Shown piece by piece: positions 27,866 to 64,000 of a DNA stretch of 64,000 bases; within the stretch, counting starts at the first letter, position 1; every line of letters begins with the position of its first letter. The position numbers and the translations under genes were made by a program. The notes beneath the pieces were generated by a model. The model saw nothing but the letters and a program-made list of their open reading frames with translations. It was not told where the DNA came from and did not search any database. Source of the DNA: Asterias amurensis (taxonomy: Eukaryota; Echinodermata; Asteroidea; Forcipulatida; Asteriidae); contig NC_092656.1 of the NCBI RefSeq assembly GCF_032118995.1, forward strand, positions 18,106,694 to 18,170,693. Direction: 5' to 3'.

Positions 27866-28255
27866 TTAAAGGCCGTGGACACTATTGGTATAATTGTCAA
27901 AGTCTAGCCTTCACAGTTGGTGTATCTCAACATATGCATAACATAAGAAACCTGTGAAAATTTGAGCTCAATTGGTCGTCAAACTTGCGAGATAATAATG
28001 AAAGGAAAAAAACACCCATGTCACACGAATTTGTGTGCGTTTAGATGGTTGATTTCGAGACCTCAAGTTCTAAATCTGAGGTCTTGAAATCAAATTCGTT
28101 GAAAATTACTTCTTTCTCGAAAACTATGGCACTTCAGAGGGAGCCGTTTCTCACAATGTTTTATACCATCAACCTCTCCCCATTACTCGTCACCGAGAAA
28201 GGTTTTATGCTAATAATTATTTTGAGTAATTACCATCAGTGCCCACTGCGTTTAA
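27866..28255 (+). mobile_element. MITE family A, copy A7
   Basis: Full-length TTAA-bounded copy with the central hairpin intact. Confidence 0.85.
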
Positions 28256-30399: not shown

Positions 30400-30850
30400 G
30401 TGGGGATTGTTCAGGATTCGGGGAAAGGTACAATTTGTTGTAGATACTGAGCGGTTGGTTGCTAAAGCAATGCCCCTTTAGTTCAGTTCTCTATCTTGCA
30501 TACCTCCTTGTTAGGTGACCCGTCCATCTCCACTTCTGTGATTGACTTTTTGTGAATAATATCCTGCACTCTTGATTGTTTTCTTAGGTCCTCATTCATC
30601 ACACTATCCTTTGTTACTCCTACCATTATTATGATGTTTTCTCAAGTCGTTTGATGGTATAGTCCATGTCTTGGCACCATCAGGACAGGTGTGACGCACT
30701 GATCAAATACTTGCCTTTTCAGCAGGAAGGGTGTGGTCTCGTAAGGTGGGTCTGAGTTTTTTCCAAAGTTCACCCGACCTACCTGGATCCTCTCTTTAGA
30801 TGGTTATCAAATTTGAGGGTTATCATTTTGAGACACGCAAACGGGTTTGT
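30400..30850 (-). mobile_element. LINE reverse-transcriptase fragment inside unit 1
   Basis: The minus strand holds a diverged C-terminal piece of a non-LTR reverse transcriptase, best seen as LLKRQVFDQCVTPVLM in the inverted copy, followed by a region like those ending in a short basic tail. The same insert is in unit 2 (about 36760-37210) and in the inverted copy, but is absent from unit 3, where the flanks meet near 42224-42245. Confidence 0.6.
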
Positions 30851-31090
30851 AATGTTAGTAGTATAGTCTAAGGCACTCACACAGGAGTTTTTGCTCGGAT
30901 TTTTTGCTGTTGTTTGCAAATTGGTCGGATTTTTTTTTTTATGGGTTAAGGTTGGGTCAAAGGCGAGCCACGGAGTGGTGAGTCGTTCGGCTCACGCTAG
31001 TGTTTGGGAGGCCCGAAGGGACGACATGCGAGCCACGGAGTGGTGAGTCGTTCGGCCCACGGCAGTGTGACGTGTGAGGGCCGACGTGTG

Positions 31091-31336
31091 AACATGATGA
31101 TGCAAGGCATCATGTTGGGTGGTTCTAGGGAATGGAGAAGTTGTCTCACGACAGTGTAACTGAGGGCAAACCGTTATTGTTTTTCCGCAGTTGTGAGGTG
31201 CGGGAGTGATTTTTAAAATCACGGAGCGCCGAAGTCATTACATACCACGCAGCACAAACGAGACGGATACGTCTCGTTTGTATTTTCACGAAGTGAAAAC
31301 AAAGGGATCGATTCCTCTACGTCTGACAAGACGTAG
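31091..31336. repeat. Run of five small hairpins, unit 1
   Basis: Within 250 bp there are five inverted repeats: AACATGATG..CATCATGTT (31091), GTGATTTTTAAAATCAC (31206), CAAACGAGAC..GTCTCGTTTG (31255), TTTTCACGAAGTGAAAA (31283) and CTACGTC..GACGTAG (31317). The run recurs at 37444-37690 and, reversed, at about 43908-44153. Function unknown. Confidence 0.8.
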
Positions 31337-33194
31337 CGGTAGAGATAAAATTGTGGTTGTCCCTTGTCTTTAGTCCAGCTCTGTCGTTGTTTGTTTGTTC
31401 GAATATGTCTGCACCACCTCGTTATGGAATACGTTTCCCATACGACCGTTTGTCGCCTTGTAGTTATTTGTACATGTTTATTTCTTTGTCTCATTTGATG
31501 GGCAAACTTTGGGTCGAGTATTTTCTTTTTTTATCTTTTTTTTAGCCCTCGGTCTGTACCGTGTGATTTTGCAGCGTCACCTTACGTCAAGGTAGGTCGG
31601 AGACGCGCATGGGTGGTTTTCTTTGTTGAGTTTTACCGTGTGACATTTGCATCGTAACCCTTGCCTGGGTTTGGTACGATTTAAACTTTTGACGACAACG
31701 CCAGTTATCTACACTAGTTTTAATCAATAAGAGCCCCAAAGTGTGGGTACAACCGAGTTAGCCATCGAGAACAGGTTTAAATGCTTAGTTTGTTTTACAT
31801 TTAGACGCCCCCCCCTTTTTTTTGGGGGGGGGGGGGGGGTATGCCTAAGCAGTTAAACACAACACAACAGATAATTTTCTATGCGTACGTTTCTGTACTG
31901 ACTAATAAACTTACGGTGCATATCCTATGTTACTGCAAATGGTCATAAAAATTATTTCCATCGTTTTCTACAAAGATTAAACGTTAAATAGAGTTATGGT
32001 GTCATAATATAATAATAACTATCCTAATCTGTAATTGCCAGTGGCCTTCACTTCGTGTACAAACAAAAAAGACCGGTGCATGGTTTACGTGAAAACCTCA
32101 TTGACCTTCTCTGGTAGTTAATAGATGACGTCACAACTACTTGGTCTTCCAGCCAAACGTGCCAGTTCTTGTTTCCCATACAGTGGAGCTATCTTTGTTT
32201 TCTATAACTCCAAGCCCACATCATGTACCACAATCACTCGGACACGGTATTATGTTTGTGTTTACCTTTGCAAAAAGGGGCTGCAGAGAAAACGAGTATA
32301 CACGGAAAAAACAAGATATACGTTACAAAAAAACTTTATTCGGTATATAACAATACATTAACATAAACATCTACTTTAATCCCCACCCCCCCCCCCTTTA
32401 TGACAAGAACTTTGAAATCATTTGACTGAACTGCGTTCGCATGGAGGTGATTGATTGGACCCCACCGACCCGTGCCTGCCTATTAAGGAGATAAGGTGGA
32501 TGGGTTGAGATTATTTAATTATAGATACTAATTAATTAATTATGTATTTACTCATCTTATTATTATTACTTTAATATTTTTATGTGGGGCGAGTTCACTT
32601 ATTAAAGCCCTCATAGTGTTTACAGTTGATAGATTATTATGCTTTAAAAAATTTCCGTTGATAATACTGTTTTGTATTATTACCAAATCAAACAATACAA
32701 TCTTGGGGGTGTAGGATTGAAAAACTTTTCATCATTTAAACTTAATTTTAGCATTCTTTATCGAAAAATTCAGTATTTTTGTTGGACGTTTCCAGCTCTC
32801 CTCTTCATTTTCATAAGCACTTTCGTCTGTAGATAGATCACTATCGTCTTCTTGAAATTCCTCCTCCTCATCATCCTCCTCTTCATCTTCAAAATCGTCA
32901 TCATCAGTTGATTAATCACTATCGTCTTCACAGAATCCCTCCTCCTCCTCCACTTCTTCGCTTTCATAAATCTTATCATGTATTGATTCATCACTATCGT
33001 CTCAAAGGAACTCCTCCTCCTCCTCCTCATCTCCTTCATTTTCATGGCCATCATCATCTGTTAGTCCATCACTATCATCATCTTCACGGTAGTCCCCTTC
33101 CTCCATCACGTCTTCATTTTCAAAATCATCACCATCTGTTGATTCATCACTATCGTCTCCATGAAGCTCCTCCCCGTCCACTTCCTCCCCTCCT

Positions 33195-34440
33195 CCTCCT
33201 CCCCATCTGCTCCACCCCATTGGGTTGTGCAGTGTGGAGCAGGCTCCTTTGCTCCATCCCCCTGCTTTGTACACGGTGGAGTCGATCCATCTGCTCCACT
33301 CCATTGGGCTGTGCAGTGTGGAGCAGGCTCCTTTGCTCCACCCCATTGCTTTGTACACGGTGAAGTCGATCCATCTGCTCCACTCCATTGGGCTGTGCAG
33401 TGTGGAGCAGGCTCCTATGCTCCACCCCATTGCTTTGTACACGGCAGAGCATCGCACGGAGCTCACTGCCATTGTACTGTACAGGGTGGAGTCGATCCAT
33501 CTGCTCCACCCCATTGGGTTGTGCAGTGTGGAGCAGGCTCCTTTGCTCCACCCCATTGCTTTGTACACGGTGGAGTCGATCCATCTGCTCCACCCCATTG
33601 GGTTGTGCAGTGTGGAGCAGGCTCCTTTGCTCCACCCCATTCTGCTCCACCCTATTGGGTTGTGCAGTGTGGAGCAGGCTCCCTTGCTCCACCCATTGCT
33701 TTGTACACGGTGGAGTCGATCCATCTGCTCCACCCCATTGGGTTGTGCAGTGTGGAGCAGGCTCCTTTGCTCCATCCTATTGCTTTGTACAGTGCGGAGC
33801 TCCACTCCATAGGGTTGTGCAGGGTGGAGTCGATCCATCTGCTCCACTCCATAGGGTTGTGCAGTGCGGAGCAGGTTCCCTTGCTCCATCCTATTGCTTT
33901 GTACAGTGCAGAGCTCCACTCCATAGGGTTGTGCAGCGTGGAGTCGATCCATCTGCTCCACTCAATAGGGTTGTACAGTGCGGAGCAGGCTCCTTCGCTC
34001 CACCCCATTGCTCTGTACACTGTGGAGCTCCGCACGGAGCTCACCGCCATTGTGTTGTGCAGGGTGGAGTAGATCCATCTGCTCCACTCCATAGGGTTGT
34101 ACAGTGCGGAGCAGGCTCCTTTGCTCCACCCCATTGTGTTGTACAGGGTGGAGTCGATCCATCTGCTCCACTCCATTGGGTTGGGCAGTGTGGAGCAGGT
34201 TCATGTGCTCCGCCCAATTGCTTTGTACAGTGCGGAGCTCCACTCCATAGGGTTGTGCAGTGCTGAGTCGATCCATCTGCTCCACTCCATAGGGTGGTGC
34301 AGTGCGGAGCAGGCTCCCTTGCTCCACCCCATTGCTTTGTACACTGCGGAGCTCCGCACAGAGCTCACCGCCATTGTGTTGTGCAGGTAGGAGTCGATCC
34401 ATCTGCTCCACTCCATAGGGTTGTACAGTGCGGAGCAGCC
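33195..34440. repeat. 84-bp minisatellite, unit 1 (about 14-15 copies)
   Basis: Period 84 bp, for example GTCGATCCATCTGCTCCA at 33281 and 33365. Each unit holds GGAGCAGGCTCC and CCCCATTGGGTTGTGCAG. The period is a multiple of three and the unit has few stops, so long open frames appear in several frames on both strands (up to 319 codons). In one minus-strand frame the 28-residue repeat runs straight into the acidic frame at 33002-33190. I do not regard the other frames as genes. Confidence 0.92.
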
Positions 34441-34975
34441 CAGCTGGAACATGGTCGCGTTGGATAACCTGGACAACTGGCTCAACCATGGCATCCTCAG
34501 GATCATTGATGCTTTGGAGGAGAGTCAGGAAGTTGCGGAGACGGCCGGAACAGCTCCGTGTGGAGCCGCCCCAACCCTTCCACCCTTTTGTCCGTAGGCT
34601 GCGGAGACAGCCGGAACAGCTCCGTGTGGTGCTGCCCCAACTCTTCTGCCCTCGTACGGCGTCACCCCAACCTTTCCGAACCCAAATGACCCGAAGCAGA
34701 CGCACCAGTTCTGCCCCCTAGAATCCCTGGCTGACCCCTATGGTTATTATAATTTCTGTCCTTGCTAGCATTGGCCTTCTGTAGCCCTAAAAATAGTTCT
34801 TTTTCTACTGTTATAAAAAAGCATGTCTCACTCAGTAATTTAGTCTGGTCCGGCTTGACCTTGGCGTATGGCGAGTCCGACGCCATGCTGTCCCAACCAC
34901 GAGGATTTCACAACAGAAAAACTAACTGTTTTACCTGATTTCTTTTGCTCTTGTTGTCCCGCCGCCGCCACCAAT

Positions 34976-35212
34976 GTAACACCAAAATCCTGTGTCAATA
35001 ACCACAACAATACGGAGCAATGAAACACACTAAAAACCAGTATTTCTGCTTGAATTCCTGACCGTTTTATTGCAGACGTCCAATCTTTATAAATTCACAG
35101 ATCTAGACATAGGAAAACATCTCCACGCCAGCGGGTTTCCCAATCTTCCAGCAGGGCTCCACCGCGGAGCCGTGCTGGCGCCCTCTACTGGCTGATTGGC
35201 ACGAATGTTACA
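34976..35212 (-). mobile_element. LTR-like repeat between units 1 and 2
   Basis: About 237 bp, bounded by TGTAACA and TGTTACA (TG..CA ends). On the minus strand it shows a TATA-like TTTATAAAG and an AATAAA in LTR-like order. It is almost identical to 40483-40720. Its place between head-to-tail internal units is what LTR-LTR recombination leaves. Boundaries are good to a base or two. Confidence 0.65.
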
Positions 35213-36759
35213 ATATGAATGTGTGCTTGGCATGCTGGTGTTACAACAGACCTAACTGCACTTTATATGCAGTTCATTTTTACTCATCAAAAACTAAGTC
35301 AGGCAGGGAGCCTCTCCTTGAGTTTGCGTCCGATCATGGCCATGGTCCGATGGTCCGATCAACGGACCATGACTGTATGCAAGGGACCGATGTTTTTCCC
35401 CTGCAGCCCTGCAGAACCATGTAATTTGTTTTAAATGCTAACCTTGTAACGTTGATTGTAAATGCCTATGGGGGCATGGGGTAATCTTGATAGACACACC
35501 AAGATAAAACCGGAAGTGCGCAGATCGACGCTAAACTCGTCGTTTAGGGATTCCTCTATACCCCAAATAATACTTCATGGTGTACTTTTGCTGTGACCGC
35601 CATTGTAGCCACTCTCTGGTGCTACTATCAAAGACAGATCTTGCCATAAAGCTACATAGAGTTCTACCGTCACGTACAGGTAGGCCTGTACTTCACCATG
35701 GACATAACCTCAAAAGAGTAAGTGCACTTTTCATTCATAACCAACAGATTCAAAATTCAAACAAACAAATCATACAGTTAGTTATCAACTGCAGTCAGGG
35801 GTCGTACACAGACACTGGGCGCGGACTTTCCCATCATCATGCGTGGGGTCATGCTGTCAGGTATGTCAACCCTCCCCAACCCCAGCCAACTGTGGCTTGA
35901 ATCGTATATCCATCTTTATTAACTGTTGAGGGATAACCTCGCTTTTGTTTGGATTTGGTGCATACAACAGGGGTCTGGGTAACCCGGTTACAGTATAGGC
36001 CCATGTATAAAATATCATCTGGTCGGTAACCCAATATAAAATGTTAAAACATAGAGCAAGGTTTGAACCACGGAGGAACGAGCACGACGGTCCTGTTGTC
36101 AATTACGCTATGCGACGATTTCGGCAAAAACCAGTAGTCGACACAGGCAAAGTGTGGAGGTCGAACAGTTGATATGTACTTTTCAGCTTTCCGATCTGTC
36201 TCATCGTTAAAAATTAAAAAAAGATTCAACGTTGTTTTTTTATGCGATTGTCTGCTTTTCTTCGTTTTAAAAAATAAGATTGAACATTTTCGTAGCATCC
36301 ATTTTTCTACTGTTTAATATACTTTTCTTCAGTTTCATCAGCTTTTACGTTTTCCCCAATACATTATCAGTCGAAAAGTTGACATTTGACCTTTGTATTC
36401 GTTTCCTTTAGAAGCAAAAGCAAACGGTTTAGATGAATTATTTTTTCTACTTTTTTTGCCTATGTAGGCCTAGTCGATCAAACGTCAAAACAATTTGTTT
36501 TTCTGCATACATGCGTCTTGAAAAGCGGATCGAATGGTTTCTAGAAAGTCGCCCTTTTCACACCACTAACCTTTGATAATTGGTGACCCGTGTAAATACA
36601 ATTTTTATTTATTTATAAACAACTGATCAGGGAATTCTATTCACGCAGAATGCAATATCATTTCCATATCTAAAGATATGAAACAGCGGCACAACAATGT
36701 TCAAACTAGCTGCACAATACACACAACATTTTTTTTTTTTTTAAGGGGTGGGGATTGTT

Positions 36760-37210
36760 CAGGATTCAGGGAAAGGTACAATTTGTTGTAGATACTGAGC
36801 GGTTGGTTGCTAAAGCAATGCCCCTTTAGTTCAGTTCTCTATCTTGCATACCTCCTTGTTAGGTGACCCGTCCATCTCCACTTCTGTGATTGACTTTTTG
36901 TGAATAATATCCTGCACTCTTGATTGTTTTCTTAGGTCCTCATTCATCACACTATCCTTTGTTACTCCTACCATTATTATGATGTTTTCTCAAGTCGTTT
37001 GATGGTATAGTCCATGTCTTGGCACCATCAGGACAGGTGTGACGCACTGATCAAATACTTGCCTTTTCAGCAGGAAGGGTGTGGTCTCGTAAGGTGGGTC
37101 TGAGTTTTTTCTAAAGTTCACCCGACCTACCTGGATCCTCTCTTTAGATGGTTATCAAATTTGAGGGTTATCATTTTGAGACACGCAAACGGGTTTGTAA
37201 TGTTAGTAAT
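36760..37210 (-). mobile_element. LINE reverse-transcriptase fragment inside unit 2
   Basis: Nearly identical to the fragment in unit 1 at the same relative position, so it was copied with the unit rather than inserted twice. Confidence 0.6.
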
Positions 37211-37443
37211 ATAGTCTAAGGCACTCACACAGGAGCACTGTTGCTCGCAAATTTTGTTGCTGTTGTTTGCAAATTGGTCGGATTTTTTTTTTTAGGGGTG
37301 AGGGTTGGGTCAAAGGCGAGCCACGGAGTGGTGAGTCGTTCGGCTCACGCTAGTGTTTGGGAGGCCCGAAGGGACGACATGGGAGCCACGGAGTGGTGAG
37401 TCGTTCGGCCCACGGCAGTGTGACGTGTGAGGGCCGACGTGTG

Positions 37444-37690
37444 AACATGATGATGCAAGGCATCATGTTGGGTGGTTCTAGGGAATGGAGAAGTTGTCTC
37501 ACGACAGTGTAACTGAGGGCAAACCGTTATTGTTTTTCCGCAGTTGTGAGGTGCGGGAGTGATTTTTAAAATCACGGAGCGCCGAAGTCATTACATACCA
37601 CGCAGCACAAACGAGACGGATACGTCTCGTTTGTATTTTCACGAAGTGAAAACAAAGAGATCGATTCCTCTACGTCTGACAAGACGAAGC
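37444..37690. repeat. Run of five small hairpins, unit 2
   Basis: Same hairpins as in unit 1; the last stem has one changed base. A 91-codon open frame overlaps it on the minus strand in all copies, but I see no family resemblance. Confidence 0.75.
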
Positions 37691-39545
37691 GGTAGAGATA
37701 AAATTGTGGTTGTCCCTTGTCTTTACTCCAGCTCTGTCGTTGTTTGTTTATTCGAATATGTCTGCACCACCTCGTTATGGAGTACGTTTCCCAAACGACC
37801 GTTTGTCGCCTTGTAGTTATTTGTACATGTTTATTTCCTTGTCTCATTTGATGGGCAAACTTTGGGTCGAGTATTTTCTTTTTTTATCTTTTTTTTTAGC
37901 CCTCGGTCTGTACCGCGTGATTTTGCAACGTCACCTTACGTCAAGGTAGGTCGGAGACGCGCATGGGTGGTTTTCTTTGTTGAGTTTTACCGTGTGACAT
38001 TTGCATCGTGTAACCCTTGACTGGGTTTGGTACGATTTAAACTTTTGACGACAACACCAGTTATCTACACTAGTTTTAATCAATAAGAGCCCCAAAGTGT
38101 GGGTACAACCGAGTTAGCCATCAAGAACAGGATTAAATGCTTAGTTTGTTTTACATTTAGACGCCCCCCTTTTTTTTTGGGGGGGGGTATGCCTAAGCAG
38201 TTATGCACAACACAACAGATAATTTTCTATGTGTACGTTTCTGTACTGACTAATAAACTTACGGTGCATATCCTATGTTACTGCAAATGGTCATAAAAAT
38301 TATTTCCATCGTTTTCTACAAAGATTAAACGTTAAATAGAGTTATGGTGTCATAATATAATAATAACTATCCTAATCTGTAATTGCCAGTGGCCTTCACT
38401 TCGTGTACAAACAAAAAAGACCGGTGCATGGTTTACGTGAAAACCTCATTGACCTTCTCTGGTAGTTAATAGATGACGTCACAACTACTTGGTCTTCCAG
38501 CCAAACGTGCCAGTTCTTGTTTCCCATACAGTGGAGCTATCTTTGTTTTCTATAACTCCAAGCCCACATCATGTACCACAATCACTCGGACACGGTATTA
38601 TGTTTGTGTTTACCTTTGCAAAAAGGGGCTGCAGAGAAAACGAGTATACACGGAAAAAACAAGATAAACGTTACAAAAAAACTTTATTCGGTATATAACA
38701 ATCCATTAACATAAACATCTACCTTAATCCCCACCCCCCCCCCCTTTATGACAAGAACTTTGAAATCATTTGACTGAACTGCGTTCGCATGGAGGTGATT
38801 GATTGGACCCCACCGACCCGTGCCTGCCTATTAAGGAGATAAGGTGGATGGGTTGAGATTATTTAATTATAGATACTAATTAATTAATTATGTATTTACT
38901 CATCTTATTATTATTACTTTTATATTTTTATGTGGGGCGAGTTCACTTATTAAAGCCCTCATAGTGTTTACAGTTGATAGATTATTATGCTTTAAAAAAT
39001 TCCCGTTGATAATACTGTTTTGTATTATTACCAAATCAAACAATACAATCTTGGGGGTGTAGGATTGAAAAACTTTTCATCATTTAAACTTAATTTTAGC
39101 ATTCTTTATCGAAAAATTCAGTATTTTTGTTGGACGTTTCCAGCTCTCCTCTTCATTTTCATAAGCACTTTCGTCTGTAGATAGATCACTATCGTCTTCT
39201 TGAAATTCCTCCTCCTCATCATCCTCCTCTTCATCTTCAAAATCGTCATCATCAGTTGATTAATCACTATCGTCTTCACAGAATCCCTCCTCCTCCTCCT
39301 CCACTTCTTCGCTTTCATAAATCTTATCATGTATTGATTCATCACTATCGTCTCCAAGGAACTCCTCCTCCTCCTCCTCATCTCCTTCATTTTCATGGCC
39401 ATCATCATCTGTTAGTCCATCACTATCATCATCTTCACGGTAGTCCCCTTCCTCCATCACGTCTTCATTTTCAAAATCATCACCATCTGTTGATTCATCA
39501 CTATCGTCTCCATGAAGCTCCTCCCCGTCCACTTCCTCCCCTCCT

Positions 39546-40080
39546 CCTCCTCCCCATCTGCTCCACCCCATTGGGTTGTGCAGTGTGGAGCAGGCTCCTT
39601 TGCTCCATCCCCCTGCTTTGTACACGGTGGAGTCGATCCATCTGCTCACCTCCATTGGGCTGTGCAGTGTGGAGCAGGCTCCTTTGCTCCACCCCATTGC
39701 TTTGTACACGGTGGAGTCGATCCATCTGCTCCACTCCATTGGGCTGTGCAGTGTGGAGCAGGCTCCTTTGCTCCACCCCATTGCTTTGTACACGGTGAAG
39801 TCGATCCATCTGCTCCACTCCATTGGGCTGTGCAGTGTGGAGCAGGCTCCTATGCTCCACCCCATTGCTTTGTACACGGCAGAGCATCGCACGGAGCTCA
39901 CTGCCATTGTACTGTACAGGGTGGAGTCGATCCATCTGCTCCACCCCATTGGGTTGTGCAGTGTGGAGCAGGCTCCTTTGCTCCACCCCATTGCTTTGTA
40001 CACGGTGGAGTCGATCCATCTGCTCCACCCCATTGGGTTGTGCAGTGTGGAGCAGGCTCCTTTGCTCTATCCTATTGCTT
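39546..40080. repeat. 84-bp minisatellite, unit 2 (about 6 copies)
   Basis: Same repeat as in unit 1 but with fewer copies, which explains most of the length difference between units. The copies nearest the acidic frame match unit 1 closely; the distal end differs. Confidence 0.9.
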
Positions 40081-40482
40081 CAACCCTTCCACCCTTGTGT
40101 CCGTAGGCTCGGAGACAGCCGAAACAGCTCCGTGTGGTGCTGCCCCAACTCTTCTGCCCTCGTACGGTGTCACCCCAACCTTTCCGAACCCACATGACCC
40201 GAAGCAGACGCACCAGTTCTGCCCCCTAGAATCCCTGGCTGACCCCTATGGTTATTATAATTTCTGTCCTTGCTAGCATTGGCCTTCTGTAGCCCTAAAA
40301 ATAGTTCTTTTTCTACTGTTATAAAAAAGCATGTCTCACTCAGTAATTTAGTCTGGTCCGGCTTGACCTTGGCGTATGGCGAGTCCGACGCCATGCTGTC
40401 CCAACCACGAGGATTTCACAACAGAAAAACTAACTGTTTTACCTGATTTCTTTTGCTCTTGTTGTCCCGCCGCCGCCACCAA

Positions 40483-40720
40483 TGTAACACAAAAATCCTG
40501 TGTCAATAACCACAACAATACGGAGCAATGAAACACACTAAAAACCAGTATTTCTGCTTGAATTCCTGACCGTTTTATTGCAGACGTCCAATCTTTATAA
40601 ATTCACAGATCTAGACATAGGAAAACATCTCCACGCCAGCGGGTTTCCCAATCTTCCAGCAGGGCTCCACCGCGGAGCCGTGCTGGCGCCCTCTACTGGC
40701 TGATTGGCACGAATGTTACA
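40483..40720 (-). mobile_element. LTR-like repeat between units 2 and 3
   Basis: Second copy of the 237-bp repeat, differing from the first by about two positions. Followed on the minus strand by TTGGTGGCGG and the 74-aa leader frame (40394-40170). Confidence 0.65.
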
Positions 40721-42404
40721 ATATGAATGTGTGCTTGGCATGCTGGTGTTACAACAGACCTAACTGCACTTATGCAGTTCATTTTTACTCATCAAAAACT
40801 AAGTCAGGCAGGGAGCCTCTCCTTGAGTTTGCGTCCGATCATGGCCATGGTCCGATGGTCTGATCAACGGACCATGACTGTATGCAAGGGACCGATGTTT
40901 TTCCCCTGCAGCCCTGCAGAACCATGTAACTTGTTTTAAATGCTAACCTTGTAACGTTGATTGTAAATGCCTATGGGGGCATGGGGTAATCTTGATAGAC
41001 ACACCAAGATAAAACCGGAAGTGCGCAGATCGACGCTAAACTCGTCGTTTCGGGATTCCTCTGTACTCCAAATAATACTTCATGGTGTGATTTTGCTGTG
41101 ACCGCCATTGTAGCCACTCTATGGTGCTACTATCAAAGACAGATCTTGCCATAAAGCTACGTAGAGTTCTACCGTCACGTACAGGTAGGCCTGTACTTCA
41201 CCATGGACATAACCTCAAAAGAGTAAGTGCACTTTTCATTCATAACCAACAGATTCAAAATTCAAACAAACAAATCATACAGTTAGTTATCAACTGCAGT
41301 CGGGGGTCGTACACAGACACTTGGCGCAGACTTGCCCATCATCATGCGTGGGGTCATGCTGTCAGGTATGTCAACCCTCCCCAACCCCAGCCAACTGTGG
41401 CTTGAATCGTATAGTATTCATCTTTATTAACTGTTTGGATTTGGTGCATAAAACAGGGGTCCGGGTAACCCGGTTACAGTAGGCCCATGTATAAAATATC
41501 ATCTGGTCGGTAACCCAATATAAAATGTTAAAACATACAGCAAGGTTTAAACCACGGAGGAACGAGCACGACGGTCCTGTTGTCAATTACGTTATGCAAC
41601 GATTTCGGCAAAAACCAGTAGTCGACACAGGCAAAGTGTGGAGGTCGAACAGTTGATATCTTTTTTTCAGTCTTCCGATCTGTCTCATTATTAAATATTT
41701 AAGAAAAACCAGATTCAACGTTGTTTTTTAATGCGATTTTCTGCTTTTCTTCGTTTTAAAAAATAAGATTGAACATTTTCGTAACATCCATTTTTCTACT
41801 GTTTAATATACCTTTCTTCAGTTTCATCAGCTTTAACGTTTTCCCCAATACATTTACAGTCGAAAAGTTGACATTTGACTTTTGTATTCGTTTCCTTAGA
41901 AGCAAAAGCAAACGGTTTAGATGAATTATTTTTTCAACTTTTTTTGCCTATGTAGGCCTAGTCGATCAAACGTCAAAACAATTGTTTTTTTCTGCATACA
42001 TGCATCTTGAAAATCGGATCGAATGGTTTCTAGAAAGTCGCCCTTTTCACACCACTAACCTTTGATAATTGGTGACCCGTGTAAATACAATTTTTATTTA
42101 TTTATAAACAACTGATCAGGGAATTCTATTCACACAGAATGCAATATCATTTCCATATCTAAAGATATGAAACAGCGGCACAACAATGTTCAAACTAGCT
42201 GCACAATACACACAACATTATACGTAAACAGAAAAAACATTAGTAGTATAGTCTAATGCACTCACACAGGAGTTTTTGCGAGCAACACTGTTGCTCGCAA
42301 ATTTGTCGGATTTTTTTTTTTTTTTTTTTGGGGGGGGGGTTGGGTCAAAGGCGAGCCACGGAGTGGTGAGTCGTTCGGCTCACGCTTGTGTTTGGGAGGC
42401 CCGA

Positions 42405-42926
42405 TACTTATCATCATGTATTGATTTATAACTATCGTCTCCAAGGAACTCCTCCTCCTCCTCCTCATCTCCTTCATTTTCATGGCCATCATCATCTGTT
42501 AGTCCATCACTATCATCATCTTCACGGTAGTCCCCTTCCTCCATCACGTCTTCATTTTCAAAATCATCACCATCTGTTGATTCATCACTATCGTCTCCAT
42601 GAAGCTCCTCCCAGTCCACTTCCTCTCCTCCTCCTCCTCCTCCCCTCCCCCTCCTCCTCCTCCCCCTCCTCCTCCCCCTCTTCCTCCTCCTCCTCCTCCT
42701 TCCCCTCCTCCTTATGATTTTGAAGATGTTTCTTCAAATTGTTTGAAGTGAAAAACACCTTATCACAAATAGGACAAGCTTTCGATTAGCTCCCGATACT
42801 GGGGTTCTTGTGTGTCTGTCGGTGTCGTTTCATATTGTCGCTACGCGAAAAGCTCTTCCCACAAATTGGACACGAGACCTTTTCCTGTACGGGTCTAAGA
42901 GAAGTGTTTAAACGCTTCGACTCCAT
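42405..42926 (-). pseudogene. C2H2 zinc-finger / acidic protein frame in unit 3 (broken)
   Basis: From an ATG at 42926 the minus strand encodes MESKRLNTSLRPVQEK, then two C2H2 fingers (CPICGKSF..HRQTH and CPICDKVF..HLQNH, 12-residue loops with RSDNMKRH). A Glu/Arg low-complexity stretch and an Asp/Glu-rich tail (GDDSDESTDGDDFENEDV) follow. The frame is interrupted at least once and the 3' part is fused to unrelated unit sequence, so it looks broken. In units 1 and 2 the 84-bp minisatellite stands where the fingers are here. The combination recalls proteins of large eukaryotic mobile elements, but I cannot name the family. Confidence 0.6.
42616..42716. repeat. Pyrimidine-rich (CTC)n tract
   Basis: About 100 bp of CCT/CTC repeats on the plus strand, encoding the Glu/Arg stretch of the zinc-finger frame on the minus strand. 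It occupies the place of the minisatellite in units 1 and 2. Confidence 0.85.
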
Positions 42927-43134
42927 TTTTTTTTTATATCAGTGAGACGATCCAAGACGAATGCTATAGGCTTCAAAGTGTACACCGACCACCAGAAAAC
43001 TTTAAATAAGTCGAACCTGTAAGGGTCTTTCAAACCTAGATTAAAAAAGAACATGGGGTGAGGTCGTTGTCAAGCTGATTCACTGTACCAGATGCCCAGA
43101 ATTGAAACAATCGTCAAACGAGGCTTAGTGATCA
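42927..43134. other. Spacer between unit 3 and the inverted copy
   Basis: About 200 bp with no counterpart elsewhere in the window. On the minus strand it is the upstream region of the zinc-finger ATG, with an A/T-rich TGATATAAAA directly before it. Nothing else recognised. Confidence 0.4.
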
Positions 43135-43907
43135 AGGGTCATTGAGGTTTTCACGTAAACCATGCACCAGTCTTTTTTGTTTGTACACGAAGTGAAGGCC
43201 ACTGGCAATTACAGATTAGGATAGTAATTATTCTATTATGACACCATAACTCTATTTAACGTTTAATCTTTGTAGAAAACGATGGAAATAATTTTTATGA
43301 CCATTTGCAGTAACATAGGATATGCACCGTAAATTTATTAGTCAGTACAGAAACGTACGCATAGAAAATTATCTGTTGTGTTGCCAACTGCTTAGGCATA
43401 CCCCCCCCCCCAAAAAAAAAGGGGGGAAGGGGCGTCTAAATGTAAAACAAACTAAGCATTTAATCCTGTTCTTGATGGCTAACTCGGTTGTACCCACACT
43501 TTGGGCTCTTATTGATTAAAACTAGTGTAGATAACTGGTGTTGTCGTCAAAAGTTTAAATCGTACCAAACCCAGTCAAGGGTTACGATGCAAATGTCACA
43601 CGGTACAACTCAACAAAGAAAACCACCCATGCGCGTCTCCGACCTACCTTGACGTAAGGTGACGTTGCAAAATCACACGGTACAGACCGAGGGCTAAAAA
43701 AAGATACAAACAAAAAAATACTCGACCCAAAGTTTGAACATCAAATGAGACAAAGAAATAAACATGTACAAATAACTACAAGGCGACAAACGGTCGTATG
43801 GGAAACGTATTCCATAACGAGGTGGTGCAGACATATTCGAATAAACAAACAACGACAGAGCTGGAGTAAAGACAAGGGACAACCACAATTTTATCTCTAC
43901 CGCTACG

Positions 43908-44153
43908 TCTTGTCAGACGTAGAGGAATCGATCCCTTTGTTTTCACTTCGTGAAAATACAAACGAGACGTATCCGTCTCGTTTGTGCTGCGTGGTAATGA
44001 CTTCGGCGCTCCGTGATTTTAAAAATCACTCCCGCACCTCACAACTGCGGAAAAACAATAACGGTTTGCCCTCAGTTACACTGTCGTGAGACAACTTCTC
44101 CATTCCCTAGAACCACCCAACATGATGCCTTGCATCATCATGTTCACACGTCG
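43908..44153. repeat. Run of five small hairpins, inverted copy
   Basis: Reverse orientation of the same hairpins, with stems retained (for example CAAACGAGAC facing GTCTCGTTTG near 43960-43986). Confidence 0.75.
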
Positions 44154-44399
44154 GCCCTCACACGTCACACTGCCGTGGGCCGAACGACTCACCACTCCGT
44201 GGCTCGCATGTTGTCCCTTCGGGCCTCCCAAACACAAGCGTGAGCCGAACGACTCACCACTCCGTGGCTCGCCTTTGACCCAACCCCCACCCCTAAAAAA
44301 AAATATTTAAAAAATCCGAGCAATTTGCGAGCAACAACAAAAAAATCCGAGCAATTTGCGAGCAACAGTGTTGCTCGCAAAAACTCCTGTGTGAGTGCC

Positions 44400-44871
44400 T
44401 TAGACTATACTACTAACATTACAAACCCGTTTGCGTGTCTCAAAATGATAACCCTCAAATTTGATAACCATCTAAAGAGAAGAATCCAGGTAGGTCGGGT
44501 GAACTTTGGAAGAAACTCAGACACACCTTACGAGACCACACCCTTCCTGCTGAAAAGGCAAGTATTTGATCAGTGCGTCACACCTGTCCTGATGGTGCCA
44601 AGACATGGACTATACCATCAAACGACTTGAGAAAACATCATAATAATGGTAGGAGTAACAAAGGATAGTGTGATGAATGAGGACCTAAGAAAACAATCAA
44701 GAGTGCAGGATATTATTCACAAAAAGTCAATCACAGAAGTGGAGATGGACGGGTCACCTAACAAGGAGGTGGGCATGCAAGATAGAGAAATTAACTAAAG
44801 GGGCATTGCTTTAGCAACCAACCGCTCAGTATCTACAACAAATTGTACCTTTCCCTGAATCCTGAACAGGA
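44400..44871 (+). mobile_element. LINE reverse-transcriptase fragment in the inverted copy
   Basis: The plus strand from about 44444 reads ITLKFDNHLKRRIQVGRVNF then LLKRQVFDQCVTPVLM before an in-frame stop. This is the pattern of the tail of RTE/Craig-like LINE polymerases (KRKVFNQCVLPVMTYG type). It is a degenerate fragment. Confidence 0.6.
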
Positions 44872-55600: not shown

Positions 55601-56481
55601 ATAACTCTATAAAATAAATGACAGAAGTAAATAAAAAGTTATCTGATAAAACTAATAAAGTTTAATTAAAACTTGACCATCAGCCTTGTTGGATAGTGGG
55701 TGAAAAAGCGGTAATTTGTAATCCACTTGCGCTTGTGTGATAACTTATAATGGAATAAAACATTCATGTTAAGTATGATTGTACAATTTAAAAACACATT
55801 AAATTTACTTTCCTCGTGACTGTGACCATGGATCTGGAGGAACCTTGTCAATTTGAGTAACTTATCATACTAATTATTTCTTCCATACCATTTTGGTCAC
55901 AATATCACAAACAAAAATCTACCATTCAAAATGTGCACATAGGAATGTTAAATTTACCATCCAATTTAACGCTCCATTTGAGAAGGAGTCCATCTGATGT
56001 GAGATAGAATCTTTTAAGATCATCAGGTAACATACAGGAATTACGCTGTTCCCATGATACCACTTGGTGGCGCTCTGCAGGTTTAGAGTCAACCAACTTC
56101 ACATCACAAATTCCTGCTCTCTTTTCTGAAATAAAGATAATATTTACATTTTCAAAATTATATGCTTCCTTTATTGACATCTTACCTAACATCAAAATGT
56201 TAACCATGATATTCTTGTCTAAATGCAACCGATGATCGTGGAGTTGCTTTGACAATGGATCAGACGAGAAAGATTTCAGAGAGTAATTATGGTTATAAAC
56301 AGTTAAAAAAAAGTTAAACAAAATTAAAAACAAAACCGATGCAAATAATCGGTCCCAAATAATGATTGAAATAGCAACACATTTGAGTTATTATCGATAA
56401 TGGTGCTGACATACCAAGAGACTTTACAACACCAAGTGTCAACTGACTAAAAAGTTCTGTTGTCAGTGGAAACTCATCCAT
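52627..56481 (-). CDS. TPGS2: Tubulin polyglutamylase complex subunit 2 (8 coding exons)
   Basis: Subunit of the complex that adds glutamate chains to tubulin, acting on microtubules of cilia, neurites and centrioles. Exons, 5' to 3': 56481-56415, 56125-55958, 55105-54971, 54426-54319, 54199-54036, 53200-53037, 52907-52863, 52690-52627. Phases join, giving 304 aa; human TPGS2 is 300. Recognised by collinear similarity: KPAERHQVVSWEQRNSC, RFYLTSDGLLLKWSVKLD, FELDSCQGIAKVCLVY, HLGLPQWQYAYTDIGLTPQ and QWFNIYSPL. The C-terminal tail is rich in Lys and Ser, like the human tail. The start is the first ATG, MDEFPLTTELF. It is divergent from the YqaJ gene, 220 bp between start codons. Introns hold MITEs of families A, C and D. 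Confidence 0.95.
53396..53783 (-). mobile_element. MITE family A, copy A10 (reversed)
   Basis: Full-length and TTAA-bounded, in TPGS2 intron 5. A short LINE-like 3' tail follows at about 53784-53890 (AATAATAATAATAA then AAAGCGCCATCTATCTAAG). Confidence 0.83.
54514..54904. mobile_element. MITE family D
   Basis: TTAA-bounded element of about 390 bp in TPGS2 intron 3, with ends AGGAACACGTTGCCTTGG and its near complement. The centre is a strong hairpin (GTCGGCCATTTATGGGAGTC facing GACTCCCACAAATGGCCGAC). From memory this family is common in sea stars. Single copy here. Confidence 0.85.
55148..55497. mobile_element. MITE family C, copy 2
   Basis: TTAA at both ends, with long inverted arms matching 915-1265 but part of the centre different. 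It lies in TPGS2 intron 2. Confidence 0.8.
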
Positions 56482-56701
56482 GTTAATCTGCCTGGTTTGG
56501 GGAAAACCTCTGGGAGGAAACTTTAATTCACACTAACAAAAACAATGTTATGTGCGCCGCCATAGACCTTATTGCAGATAGCGATTTTGAACAACTGCGC
56601 ATGTGCGCGCAAAGGACTGTGGGAACAATTTGGCACTTTGCTCAAAAAAGTAAACAACGTTCGTACAAGATCGATCGGTGTGACGAACAGCTGTTTGCAA
56701 A
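56482..56701. promoter_or_regulatory. Bidirectional promoter of TPGS2 and the YqaJ gene
   Basis: Only 220 bp separate the two start codons. The interval is richer in CpG than its surroundings and has an NRF-1-like CTGCGCATGTGCGC (about 56595-56608) and a GCCGCCAT YY1-like motif. There is no clear TATA box, as is usual for bidirectional housekeeping promoters. Assignment is by position and motif; start sites are not known. Confidence 0.6.
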
Positions 56702-59700
56702 ATGAATGGAGTGACCGAGAAAGAGCTGCTGGAGAAAATAAATAGTTTTAGAATAGACGAGTTAAGGTCATTTTTAGCCAAAGTGAATGTGCCAAGACAC
56801 GGCGTAGTTAAGGAGCAACTACAAAGGCGACTATTTTTCGCGTTGAAATTAGGTTTGCCCGTCTGTCCAACCGTCGACCGGGAGGAAGCAAACAGACAAC
56901 TGACAAGAGCGACAAAGCTGCAGTACGGATCGGTGACGCTCCCGCACCCATTAACCCTCGAGGGATGGGAAACAACCAATGACAACTTCCCATCGGTGAC
57001 TCGGGTTTTTGCTGAGAGTTACTTCGACAAAAGTAAGATATGTTTTTATGTTACAAAACACAGAGAGAAACATGACAATCATGTCTTGATGGTCGAGGAT
57101 TGTGTTACAAAATGTACTATATATAAACCGATGATGATGATGTCGTATGCTACTAGTACTATGTAGATCTCGTTTTGAAGTCCATAATCCAGTTTACGGC
57201 TGGGTCCTCAGCCAGGTGAAGGGCTTTGATGCCACCATCAAGGTGAGAGAGTGGGCAGTATAAACCGATAAAAAGCGATAAAAACCTAATATCAGTCACT
57301 ACCAATCATGCGTCTTGTGTGTTCTACCTCAAGATAAATACGCTAGGGGTGTTATAATATAAGTTATCACACAAGCGCGAGTGGAATACGGAAAAATATA
57401 GCGCTTCTGCGTCCCATATCCAACGAGGCCGCAGGCCGAGTTGGATATGGGACGCAGACGCGCTATATTTTCCGTATTTCCCGAGCGCGCTTGTGATAAC
57501 GTATTTATCTTCAAGCAAACTTGCCGCGTGACATAGAACACACAAGACGCATGGTAGTGATATTAGCCGTGCAATATAGGTTTTTATCACCACTCCATTC
57601 TGCCAATCTGATTGGAGGATTAGCGCGTACTTGAAGATAAAGGTTTTAATCACCACTCCATTCTGCGAATCTTATATAAAGCATCAAACTGTGATGTTCA
57701 ATAAGCTGTATTGTTTGGCCCTAGGTACTGTAATATAGTATGTTTAAATTAGTTTGTCTTTAATTTTAATATTGTACCTCGAGTTTTTGTAGGTTTATAA
57801 TTTGTAAAGAGAGGACGTGGTCACGGTGAGCGAAGCCCTTCTTCAGGTAGGAATTTGATAAAAGAATATCAAAATGTGTGTTTCAAATAAGTAAAGTTAT
57901 TGATTCAATGAAATTACTGGGAAATTTAAAAGATTACTGCATTTGGGCATCCTTGGTTTTACTTGGAATTTTTTAAATCAATTTTTATTACACTTTATTA
58001 TTTTGGGGGCAACTACACGTAGATCCCAATTAATACATTTTTTGTTATTATAGACTTATACAGTATATCTGCTTTTATATTCTTCATATTCTTCACAAAT
58101 AATATATTTTGTAAATCTTTTAAACCTGATTCTAAATTTGTATCTATTGATACGTCTCATTTTGCAGTTTAAGTGGGTGATGGGTGCCATGCCACCATTT
58201 TGTTGAAAGTCATCAGAGAAGAAGTACTGTGAGCACTTAAAATAATGAGATTCTCTGCAAAATCTGCATCTTCAAAATCTGCATCTTCAAAATCTGGATT
58301 AAAATTAACAAGTAAGTAGACTGGCACTGTGGTCAGGTGGTTCAGGGCCCACTAATAATGGGTTCAGTACTGCCAGAGGCAACTTGTATGTAAGCTGTCT
58401 CATGACTTCACAAAGCCAACATTACAACAATAGATCTTTATCTAGCTGCAGCCAACTTTATCAGACATGTCATGCATGTCAGAGTCCTTGTTCACACAAA
58501 GACTCTGACAGATTAAACTTCAAGTTACAATGAGGGGTCAGACTATTCTGCAGCACTCATTTTGGTTGGAATGGAATCTAAAGATGACTGCACCATGATA
58601 AAAGTCTATCAAATTGCAACTGATGTACAATGTAGGCCCATCTGTGACAAATTCTAGTTTGTGAATGCTTTACCATGCATTGCTGTAAACTTAACTCCAA
58701 TTGTTCAATTGGTCACGTCTAACAGCATCTGTAATTATTTGACCCATTTTTTGGTGAGAGTTTAAAGGTTTCATTGATCACTATGGGTACACATAATTTA
58801 ACTCCAGCTGTAAATAAATCCAAACCTGTGACACAATTTTTTTTTTTTTTTACAAAATTATTTATTTACAGTTTCCTTTCTTCAAAAAATACTCTTTTTT
58901 ACAAATATTTAAATTGGTAATAAAAAGACATTCAAAACTAATTCAGAGGTAAAATTCCAAATGTATTTAATGGAAAAATATACTGAAAGTTTGCACATAA
59001 CTCACTTTATCTTCAAGCAGGCTTGAATCCTTGATTCTGATGGATCAATCTTTAGCAACAAGGAGTTAGCTTTAAACGTACATTTCAAGGCTACATCACA
59101 CCCTTCGTATTGTGTGTTTTTACTCCATGTATTACACTTCTACAGATGGATTGCAATAAACGTCATTGACTACATCTTTGATATAATATCAAGGGGGAAA
59201 AGTGCACATTTGTATGCGCTGCGCATCAAAGATCCCGGTTGATGATGATGACACCCATTGCAATCCATCTACATGTATTAAATGCTGAATCATCACATAC
59301 ATGCTTGAAGTTTGCTTGAAGATAAAATTGTTATCACCCGCCGCACTTATGGAAATCAGAAAAATATAGTCCATCTGCGTCCCCCACCAAACTAAGCCTT
59401 TGGCACCATTAAATAATATGGTTTGCAGAAGTGCTAAATTTGTCTGTATTTAACTTGTGTAATATCTTTTAACGTGCTGAACCTTTAAAACACCAAAAAC
59501 ATACACATTGTCCTGTACGATTAAATCACAGCCTGGTTAGCTCAGCTGGTAGAGCATGGGATTGTTAGTCCTTGGTCGTGGGTTCGAGTCCCACACCAGG
59601 CATCTTGTACAGAACATCATTCATTCAATTTTATAACATGTCCAGTTGCATTTGATCTCCAAAGGTCGTGATACCTTATTTCCTTTTTATAAGTGTGCAA

Positions 59701-62700
59701 AGGCAGACAAACATAAACAACCAAATGTGAACAACCAAATTGGTTTGGGTAAATAAAGTTCATTTATATCCCACTAGATTCCTTGTAACTCTCCAGCCAA
59801 CATACCAAAGTATAACATTTTATATTCAATGACCACAATACTTTTATTTCCACCCAGTCTATAAACTACAGATTACTTTTGCTGAATGATGTACACATGA
59901 TGAATACACCGTTGACATGAGTGGTATTGACGATGATGCCTGTGCAAGAATGTGTGTCCCTCATCCCCCAACCCCATCCCAGTTGATCAATGCATCATTT
60001 AATTCAGAGAGTTGGGTAGCTACTGCAGAAGATTACCATCAATTATAAGTCAAGATCTTCAAAACTATGTCAACAGGCATCGGGACTAAGCTCACATAAA
60101 TCTAGTGGTGCACAAAGTTTTGTACATTGTATTGAGAGCATTGTGACTACCAGTATTACACTATTTCATTAGATCGTGCGCTGTTCATATAATTCGAACT
60201 TTGTTTCTATTTAAATAATTGGATCAGTTTAAATGCCTAATACACCAAAGCGAACCAAAATAACCTTTTCATGAAGTTCCTATTTCAACAAAAGAACGGG
60301 GTCACCTATGTAAGATCACACTTAATTTTTATACTAAATGTCACTTTTTATTGAAATGCTAATCAATGTACATGTACCTTCAATTTTTGTTGTACAAAAA
60401 TTTCCAAATGGCATCATTGGTAATAAATAATAAGTGTATACACTGTACATGACTTGCGTCTTAGACTTAATATATTATATTTACAGTTTAAGAATATAGT
60501 AAACTTCATAGACAGTTCTCTCCTGGTACCTAACCTAACCACATTTCCTTTTCTAAAACACATTGCCTTTTCTTTACCTAATTACCTGATGCCATTATCC
60601 ACTAGGAAACCAAGATGTGGGCATATATACAGGTGGGCAGAAGGCACTACGGGAAGGTAGAAGTATGGCACTTTCCAGAGGGCGTGTACATGGTGTGGAG
60701 TACCATCCGATAAGTGACATTGTAGGTGAGTACATACATGCCACCTGTACCCGTACATCAGTCATTTTGACTTCTTAACATGAATAAATTCATTTTAAAA
60801 CATGAAGGTATGATAGCATTTCTCTAACTGGCATAAAAGGACACTTGCTGTATTCTGAGCAGAGCCCACATTTATGATTATACATAATTGAGTCTGCCAG
60901 TGACTCTTTTAATTAATGATCTGTTGTTCAGCGCCTTCATTGGGGTCAAAGGAGGCAAATGATTGGACGATAGCTGTTCTTTGTGCATTCAAACGCACGC
61001 AGGAGCTCAGCGTAAGTTTATACGCACGCACCTGTTACACACGCGCACTCAAAATTGATACTTTTTCAGCGCGCGTACGTCGAGTGCGCGAAGTTCCAAT
61101 GAAACTAACATGGATATAAATAAGCATGCGATACAGTGCAACGCGCAAGGTTTACACAATGTATGCTGATTTAGGGGCCACTTATTCGTTTTTTTCCAAA
61201 GCCGGTCTTTATACCACTGTTAACACTCGCACATGTGACGGGGTTTTGACCAATCAGAGACTTGAAACCGTCCAAGGTATTTATTAATGAAAAATATCAA
61301 TCTATCTCTCTCCATCTACAGGACTCTGCTATATCCGTGCACTTGTGGTACCACAAACGCGAGTTAACGATCATCCATACATGGTATGGGTACTTGTATT
61401 CAAAGCTACTGGTGTCATACATCAAGCAGATTGTCATTGCATAGCAGGGTGTGTTAAGTAATCTATGATTAAGTTGAATAGTATTGATCTTTGGAAAAGT
61501 TCACTTATCTTCCAGCAAACTGGAATCATGTGTTCTGAATGATTCATCCATAGCAACAAGAGTGCGATACATTATCCAAATAACTATCTTGAACCAAGTC
61601 CTTCAGTTTTTAGACAAATTTGGAGGAAAATTCCACATGACTGCACGACTTGAATAAACACAAAGAGAAGATTTATCTTGCTGTTTTATGAGCAATATTC
61701 AGCAGGATTGAAATATTTTTCCAGTCTCAAAGTTTACCCTTGAACAAAATTCTTGAAAAGATGTTGAATTGAAAACAAAAAACAACACCACATTTCTTGG
61801 CTGGTGGTCCAGTGTAAGTTTCCAGCCCTGAGACGAGTAGTGAACACTCTTTTGTGTTTTTATTAAGAGAATACATTAAAAGTTTTGTAGCTAACACTTT
61901 ATACTTTCATCAACTAGACTCAGCGGAATGTGTAAACATGTAGCAGCACTGCTGTCACATGTTGCTCAACATGTTCAGCATGGTTGTAATATGGCACGCA
62001 CCAGCAAACTGCAGAAGTGGCACAAACCGAGTAAGTCATCAAGCCATGGTGTTAAAACATCAGCCTTACTTAAGGACATCCAAACACCAAAGGCATCTTC
62101 CTCGATGACCTGTGAACTAACAAAGGTTCACAGGGACGAAGTTGACCTTCGATCTGCTCTACACAAAAGAACAAAGACAATAGGTGACTATAATTTGGAT
62201 GTTCTGGCAGAAATCACCAATGGAAAGGCAGCTGGCTTGTTACATTTATCGCATAAAAGGAAATGTCCCTCATCACCAGACATTAACAATATTCACTCAA
62301 CAATTAACATAACTTCATCATCACCGATCTATGTGTCATCGGTCAAAGATGCCCTCATGAGAGTAAAGACACACACACAGCCTTTAGTCAACTCAGAAGA
62401 AATGGTTAATGAGCTCTCCTGCAGCAAAAGAAGTAGGATGTGGTTGGTCGAGTCCACAAAACAACAGTTCAGATCACATCTTTGGAGTGCACACAGAACT
62501 GGAAGAATAACCGCTTCTAATATGAGTGCTGTCATGAAGCATGTTGATGCACATGGTAACATAACTGGAGCCACACACAGTATCATTGCTACAGCCATGT
62601 CTTACTACAAGCATTTCACAACACCAGCCACATCATATGGGATAAACCAAGAACCAACAGCCCGAAAGCAGTACTCGCTAACAATGCAAAAGAAACACAA

Positions 62701-63184
62701 ACATTTCACTACCCAGGAGACAGGCCTCTGGATATCCAGTACACATCCTTTCATTGCTGCGACCCCTGATGGATGCGTCACATGCAAGTGTTGCGGGGAT
62801 GGCATCATTGAGATAAAGTGTCCATTCAGAAACAATAATGTCAGCATTAAAGAATATGGTTCACTGAAGAATACATGCTTGGAAAGCAAAGAGGGCCAAG
62901 TTACTTTGAAAACTTCTCACAGTTATTATATTCAGGTTCAATGTCAGTTGTTTTGTACAGAATGCAGTTACTGTGACTTTGTATTAATGACTAATGCAAA
63001 ACAAGATAACATGCTAATCCAGCGCATTTGTAGGAATGAAAAAATAATTGATGAAATGAAACAAAAAGCATCAATTTTCTGGTCAGACAAGGTGTTGACT
63101 GAGCTGACAACATGTGAAGTAGAGAAGAAAATGGCATTTAAATACATTAAAGATCTGCTTGTAGAAGCACTCTCTAAGTTGTAG
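56702..63184 (+). CDS. SAP / SWIM zinc finger / YqaJ nuclease protein (4 exons)
   Basis: Exons 56702-57032, 60606-60725, 61322-61448 and 61924-63184 join in phase to 612 aa with no internal stop. Residues about 6-50 look like a SAP DNA-binding motif (LRSFLAKVNVPRHG). A SWIM zinc finger follows, with Cys188, Cys190, Cys196 and His198 (ADCHCIAGGMCKH). The C-terminal half is a YqaJ-type (lambda-exonuclease-like) nuclease: RTGRITASN near 384-392, Glu436 in GINQEP, Asp475 in ATPDG, Glu489 and Lys491 in EIKCP, Gln530 in YYIQVQ. The acidic and lysine catalytic positions are therefore present. Such proteins are numerous in cnidarians, echinoderms and fish, and a YqaJ protein is reported as the partner of ISL2EU-type transposases. 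Here it is intact, spliced, shares a promoter with TPGS2, and faces a transposase end. It may be a domesticated nuclease or part of a transposon. Neither the human set nor a gene symbol applies. Confidence 0.88.
57307..57553. mobile_element. Palindromic MITE in the YqaJ gene intron 1
   Basis: Arms of over 100 bp (ends CATGCGTCTTGTGTGTTCTA and complement) meet near 57430 in GCCGCAGGC. It is GC-rich at the centre and non-coding. Confidence 0.8.
57554..60605. other. Rest of YqaJ gene intron 1
   Basis: AT-rich intron of about 3 kb with the tRNA-like sequence at 59531-59602 and a T-run near 58836. I saw no further exon with a family match. Confidence 0.4.
59531..59602 (+). tRNA. tRNA-like sequence, anticodon GTT on a Lys-like body (probable pseudogene)
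   Basis: 72 nt. Acceptor GCCTGGT pairs with ACCAGGC, D-arm GCTC/GAGC, T-arm GTGGG TTCGAGT CCCAC all pair. The anticodon loop TTGTTAG reads GTT (Asn), but the anticodon stem has one mismatch and one G-T pair. The body resembles animal tRNA-Lys rather than tRNA-Asn. It lies in intron 1 of the YqaJ gene. It could be a tRNA pseudogene or a SINE head; no SINE body is obvious. Confidence 0.5.
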
Positions 63185-63694
63185 AGAAAAACAAGTTGAA
63201 ACTACAAGTACCTGCCAAATGAATAGGTTAAAGCCATTGGACCCTTTCGGTACAGAAAAAAAATAAAAGTTCACAGATTTACAAATAATTTACAGGGTTT
63301 ATAGAAGGTAATGGTGAAAGACTTCTCTTGAAATATTAATCCATGAAATGCTTTACTATTTGAGAAAACAGTAAAACAATATAAATTCTCGTTAGCGAGA
63401 AATACAGCGGAAACACGCGGAAACAAGAGTGGGTTTTCCCGTTATTTTCTCCCGACTCCGATGACCGATTGAGCCTAAATTTTCACAGGTTTGTTGTTTT
63501 ATATACATGTATAAATTGTGATACACGAAGTGTGGGACTTGGACAATACTGTTCACCGAAAGTGTATAATGGCTTTAATATACATTTGACAGCAAGAGAA
63601 AATGTGTTGACATGCTGAATATATGCACGGTCTTCACTATTCCCTCCCTATTCAGACGACAGATTGACCCCTTGTAATTTTAACTATCCTACAT
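63185..63694. other. Interval between the YqaJ gene and the transposase end
   Basis: Contains MITE B3. An AATAAA at 63262-63267 inside the MITE is the first candidate poly(A) signal after the YqaJ stop. No other feature seen. Confidence 0.5.
63238..63578 (+). mobile_element. MITE family B, copy B3
   Basis: TTAA-bounded copy between the convergent YqaJ and transposase frames. Slightly shorter in the centre than B1 and B2. The A-run near its left end has become AAATAAAA. Confidence 0.85.
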
Positions 63695-64000
63695 TTAACC
63701 TTTAATAACAGAGGGTTTGAGATTGGTAAGAGCACAGCACACAGTTGCTGCAGGTCCAATTAAATCGAGCTGATTTACAGGCACTGGACCTGCTAGATAT
63801 TTATACTCCCGTACTCTACCAATCACACGCTCAACATGAATTCGAGCATGTGTGATTTCCTTGTTGAGGACATTCTTCTCCTCAGTAAACGGTTGCCCTT
63901 TATGAACAAATGGTAGAATAATGAGCTCGACACCATGCTCTACCAATTCACCCTTTATCTTAAATCCTTTGTCAACCATACACTTGTCACCAGGAGAGAA
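63695..64000 (-). CDS. C-terminal end of a DDE_Tnp_4 transposase (Harbinger/ISL2EU-like), continues beyond the window
   Basis: The open frame enters from the window edge and ends at the stop at 63695-63697; about 100 codons are visible. It shows the end of a DDE-type transposase catalytic domain: DKCMVDKGFKIKGELVEHG contains the second Asp region (GD..MVDKGF), and THARIHVERVIGRVREYK contains the Glu helix (RIHVERVIGR), followed by CCALTNLKP. This is the pattern of the DDE_Tnp_4 family. No stop interrupts the visible part. It faces the YqaJ gene tail to tail, 510 bp apart. Whether an N-terminal THAP or other binding domain is present cannot be seen here. Confidence 0.88.
   Translation of the reverse strand, partial: FSPGDKCMVDKGFKIKGELVEHGVELIILPFVHKGQPFTEEKNVLNKEITHARIHVERVIGRVREYKYLAGPVPVNQLDLIGPAATVCCALTNLKPSVIKG

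Follow-up and report, generated by a model that had tools for sequence, protein, structure and literature searches.

The ISL2EU transposons, members of the PHIS superfamily found only in animals, pair a DDE transposase with a YqaJ protein (PMC4482050), and the same DDE/YqaJ pair is likewise described in PMC9179366. According to the passages of PMC4482050 that deal with these elements, their hallmarks are an AT target duplication within AATT and terminal repeats that usually start with GG, their transposase carries DDE, HTH and THAP, and their mean length is about 4.8 kb. ISL2EU is a eukaryotic cut-and-paste transposon with an exonuclease of its own, and what this second protein does is stated to be unknown by Han et al. 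(2015) in the same passages (PMC4482050); an earlier remark on the present locus, that the role of an exonuclease in eukaryotic transposition is little studied, holds to that extent. PIF/Harbinger and Nuwa elements resemble the gene pair described below in their related DDE transposase and their two-gene design, but encode a second protein with a Myb/SANT domain (PMC4482050, in the part concerned with these elements) where that of our pair is of the YqaJ type. For Harbinger, transposition in vitro needs both genes, as the corresponding part of PMC9179366 reports. In an extract of a scallop paper, YqaJ genes are counted with the gene families of transposon type. The open-access literature searched held no paper on point for YqaJ combined with SWIM, SAP, domestication or echinoderms, and in the available text of the two transposon papers (PMC4482050 and PMC9179366) the word 'domesticated' occurs only in the reference lists.

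The gene pair beside TPGS2

The window, by which we mean the whole 64,000-nucleotide stretch of Asterias amurensis DNA analysed here, contains the following features towards its end.

55926–56481, minus strand: putative first two exons of TPGS2, head to head with the nuclease gene; open frames, with the exon 1 ATG at 56481
56482–56701, no strand: 220-bp interval separating the start codons of TPGS2 and the nuclease; predicted NRF1-like and YY1-like sites
56702–57032, plus strand: nuclease exon 1, SAP-like domain; donor GTAAGA
57033–60605, plus strand: nuclease intron 1, 3573 bp, containing diverged foldback-type repeats and a tRNA-Asn-like sequence
60606–60725, plus strand: nuclease exon 2, open; acceptor CTAG, donor GTGAGT
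61322–61448, plus strand: nuclease exon 3, open (acceptor CTACAG, donor GTGTGT); contributes CHCIAG, the first half of the SWIM motif
61918–63184, plus strand: nuclease exon 4; contributes CKH, which completes the SWIM motif, and carries the YqaJ domain (E = 5.6e-21) and the stop codon
63228–63578, no strand: 351-bp TTAA-flanked MITE between nuclease and transposase; 24-bp end repeats, 88% complementary
63695–64000, minus strand: final 101 codons of a transposase of the DDE_Tnp_4 type (E = 1.6e-17), open and running past the end of the window

We conclude that the region very probably comprises the two convergent genes of an ISL2EU-type DNA transposon of the PHIS superfamily, inserted next to the TPGS2 start. 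The basis for this lies in the domains, the motifs, a spliceable open frame, the convergent order of the genes and the occurrence of the same pairing on an unrelated contig (L001, see below). The association of YqaJ-type proteins with ISL2EU transposases, put forward in the first-pass annotation, is confirmed in print in the relevant parts of PMC4482050 and PMC9179366; the pairing itself is therefore already published, and the window adds a member. That member combines a transposase of the DDE_Tnp_4 type, represented by its C-terminal part only, with a YqaJ second ORF. The right end of the element lies beyond the window and, on the left, no ATGG (the AT duplication followed by the GG start) is present in 56482–56701.

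The nuclease gene extends over positions 56702–63184 of the plus strand in four exons separated by GT–AG introns, which join to one open frame of 614 codons and a stop. A four-exon open gene had been proposed from the first reading of the sequence, and this stands, the length of 612 residues given there reflecting a neighbouring splice choice. Within the ranges of splice sites scanned, 60 combinations leave the frame open, and the model adopted was selected from these for its consensus donors and its uninterrupted SWIM motif. Because of intron 1, the nuclease gene alone measures 6.5 kb, as against the mean of about 4.8 kb given for whole ISL2EU elements in the excerpted text of PMC4482050. The foldback-type repeats in this intron lie at 57296–57560 and 59308–59450, and the tRNA-Asn-like sequence at 59531–59602 may be either a gene or the head of a SINE. 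Searches with tblastn across the window found no second copy of either the nuclease or the transposase gene; all remaining matches have E values of at least 0.26.

The YqaJ domain is recognised by Pfam with an E value of 5.6e-21 and a score of 75.8 bits, far above the cut-off of 22. The protein also matches the PHROG family of RecE-like exonucleases (E = 1.1e-21) and, under that family's cut-off, the NCBIfam lambda-exonuclease-type proteins. Its nearest relatives by sequence among solved structures are the exonuclease 3syy (E = 2.1e-8) and protein R354 (E = 1e-4), the latter presumably a mimivirus protein. The alignment with 3syy covers the acidic and lysine motifs EP.AR..Y, PDG and IEIKCP, which we take to hold the catalytic residues, so that the nuclease residues are in place, as had been claimed. 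Prediction of the structure of the YqaJ part from a two-row alignment gave a mean pLDDT of 33.

The additional domains are less sharply defined. The SWIM motif CHCIAGLSGMCKH, of the form CxCx(n)CxH, is exact and spans the join of exons 3 and 4, while the SWIM HMM scores 13.4 bits (E = 0.058), under its cut-off of 19.6. The SAP profile matches exon 1 with an E value of 5.6e-4 and 19.9 bits, under a cut-off of 23.9. Of the SAP–SWIM–YqaJ architecture first proposed, the YqaJ component is thus secure, the SWIM component is present as a motif but falls short as a profile match, and the SAP component is a weak match. The nuclease core shares its conserved acidic and lysine motifs with the lambda exonuclease/RecE/YqaJ and alkaline exonuclease families but differs from them in lying behind SAP-like and SWIM motifs and in being encoded by a gene with introns. 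SAP and SWIM are, in addition, absent from the descriptions of ISL2EU in the passages of PMC4482050 and PMC9179366 devoted to it.

The transposase tail covers positions 73–158 of the 158 in the DDE_Tnp_4 profile, corresponding to the C-terminal part that falls within the window, so that any THAP or HTH part would lie beyond 64000; it has no match in the PDB. Its orientation tail to tail with the nuclease gene, with the DDE_Tnp_4 frame uninterrupted, is as first described, and 510 bp separate the two stop codons. Most of this gap is filled by the MITE, which has TTAA at both ends, and once it is subtracted the two genes end only 159 bp apart.

These arrangements are compatible with a scheme in which the minus-strand DDE transposase would cut at the terminal repeats of the element, and the plus-strand SAP–SWIM–YqaJ protein would be its usual second protein. 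SAP and SWIM may recruit the nuclease either to the transposase or to DNA itself; the YqaJ domain, as an exonuclease of the lambda/RecE type, might then trim or resect the ends made by the transposase, either at the excision gap or at the flanks of the integration site. The YqaJ protein would in this way fill the place of partner that is held in Harbinger by the Myb-like protein. With its open nuclease frame, the pair lends itself to a transposition assay in which the nuclease is included or left out.

The MITE, a putative TPGS2 promoter and possible domestication

We consider it unlikely that the nuclease, although of ISL2EU origin, is now a domesticated host gene that uses the TPGS2 promoter and is under purifying selection, with the transposase either a remnant or also retained. 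The arrangement of the start codons is in its favour. The gene upstream, which we take to be TPGS2, has as its only Pfam match SMI1_KNR4 (E = 0.026, under the cut-off) and no match in the PDB for the piece within the window; its start codon and that of the nuclease are head to head, 220 bp apart, and the interval lacks a GG element end. It contains a near-palindrome at 56596–56607 (with one mismatch allowed, three matches at two places against 0.16 expected) and the octamer ATGGCGGC at 56556–56563 on the minus strand, which is the sole match in the window, with 0.43 expected by chance and one found in 31 of 100 shuffles. We take these motifs to be NRF1-like and YY1-like, respectively. NRF1 and YY1 sites are typical of housekeeping promoters, and the nuclease may be driven by a promoter on the TPGS2 side, but the two sites may equally serve TPGS2 alone.

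The MITE offers a rough clock for the same question. Full-length copies elsewhere in the window, at 12545–12906 (86%) and 6212–6576 (82%), allow private changes to be counted: in 324 ungapped columns there are 13 in the copy between the genes and 4 and 10 in the others. At 4% neutral change, the chance that the 614-codon nuclease frame would have survived is about 6e-4, and at 2% and 5% it is about 0.02 and 8e-5, respectively; these estimates use an assumed indel rate and presume that the MITE was inserted after the element had settled. On this rough clock, with 4% private change, it is unlikely that the open nuclease frame has been neutral. The open transposase tail is too short to be informative, its survival by the same estimate being about 0.34. 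The private changes may, however, be attributable in part to the source copy and, because a mobile element could have carried the MITE along, the clock fits transposition and domestication alike: a MITE moving inside the element would explain the open frame equally well, since selection during transposition also keeps a frame open. That the host has taken over an ISL2EU nuclease of the lambda-exonuclease type as a gene of its own, with expression from a promoter shared with TPGS2 and an intact frame maintained by selection, is unlikely in our judgement. Such a gene, if real, would amount to a transposon exonuclease with SAP and SWIM parts that has been domesticated, perhaps for repairing DNA or for defending against mobile DNA.

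Relatives on two contigs of an Aquifex MAG

The reading of the locus as an ISL2EU-type pair gains from relatives found outside the starfish. A search pattern was built on the CCG–IEIKCP core of the window nuclease, guided by known relatives, and was checked against the window first. It matched no viral contig and a single contig of the genome collection, L001, which is 3925 bp in length and is titled as part of an Aquifex MAG. The plus strand of L001 encodes a YqaJ protein 35% identical to the window nuclease (E = 6e-25), its reading interrupted near base 600, and the minus strand carries an open transposase of 335 residues with DDE_Tnp_4 and HTH_Tnp_4, convergent with the YqaJ gene as in the window. 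Over 103 columns, the transposase tail of the window is 36% identical to this protein. Because of its long non-coding stretches and its gene content, L001 is likely to be animal DNA that contaminates a publicly deposited bacterial genome. SAP and SWIM were not found on L001, which begins just before the YqaJ part.

A second contig of the same MAG, C157, encodes a transposase 74% identical to that of L001 and convergent to a SAP exon. The SAP match has an E value of 1.8e-4 and is the best of four in the 1.7-Mb MAG (E up to 1), the next having an E value of 0.137; it is under the Pfam cut-off. Of 14 control genomes, 13 also give weak SAP matches, none of them above the cut-off, so that it is the E value and the position of the C157 match that set it apart. 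No YqaJ match was found on C157. In both of the related contigs, then, the transposase has a convergent neighbour, YqaJ on L001 and the SAP exon on C157, each contig showing part of the design and neither the whole of SAP–SWIM–YqaJ. The N-terminal 244 residues of the window nuclease have no match in the MAG, and the SWIM profile has one, on contig C15, the same profile matching in all 14 control genomes. Because the strongest SAP hit in the MAG is convergent to the sister transposase on C157, the SAP part looks ordinary for elements of the ISL2EU type, and the 'unusually protein-rich partner' of the first-pass annotation is, as regards SAP, not upheld. The convergent order and the SAP exon next to the sister transposase in a distant relative point to conservation of the design.

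Local alignment revealed no terminal repeats on either contig, with best scores of 24 for C157 and 22 for L001, below the maxima of 32 and 29 obtained with shuffled sequences. GGGGCCC flanks the gene pair of C157 at 371 and 3180, an arrangement with no like in 2000 simulations, for a motif picked post hoc by eye. To the eye, the start of C157 (L010:1–260) resembles a MITE whose inverted ends are long, which is unusual for an Aquifex genome.

The same contigs bear on whether exon 1 belongs to the nuclease at all. It could instead be a small gene in its own right, or a falsely predicted exon, 3.6 kb upstream: the join across the 3573-bp intron is a predicted one, chosen among the 60 open splice combinations, the SAP match is under the cut-off, and the SAP exons of the window and C157 give no pairwise alignment (E = 0.99). 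The position of the SAP exon of C157, adjoining the sister transposase in the same relative orientation, argues against this, and we regard a separate exon 1 as quite improbable. It is highly improbable that the pair are chance neighbours, the nuclease deriving from an animal virus that had integrated, or from elsewhere, and the Harbinger-type transposase being unrelated to it, since the match of the nuclease to the Viral_alk_exo profile (E = 7.7e-7), its relative of solved structure R354 and the description of YqaJ families as endogenous viral elements in an extract of one clam paper are set against the convergent pairing on L001, the published ISL2EU pair (PMC4482050, in the part seen here) and the lack of any relative in the viral collection, as far as scans that detect close relatives or exact patterns can show.

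The viral contigs were also searched at the protein level, with no relative confirmed among 5, 9 and 94 stretches. Five viral contigs matched a RIHVER pattern and were rejected, their ORF lists, inspected by eye, showing phage or bacterial genes and no transposase like DDE_Tnp_4. A single contig matching the SWIM pattern (L011) was set aside as no relative, the surrounding ORFs being bacterial-looking by eye.

Other features of the window

A segmental duplication occupies 28886–44868, with copies beginning at 28886, 35212 and about 40720 with pairwise identities of 87–96%, and a further piece in inverted orientation at 43137–44868 (about 95%). It holds GC-richer tandem arrays of 42/84-bp units at 32802–34438 and 39150–40080. 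Two further tRNA-like sequences, at 18927 and 22463, may be either genes or SINE heads. A repeat of about 390 bp at 27865–28255 has copies at 3591, 8429, 9344, 20507, 51326 and 53394 (86–92%), together with a weaker one at 13744 (79%).
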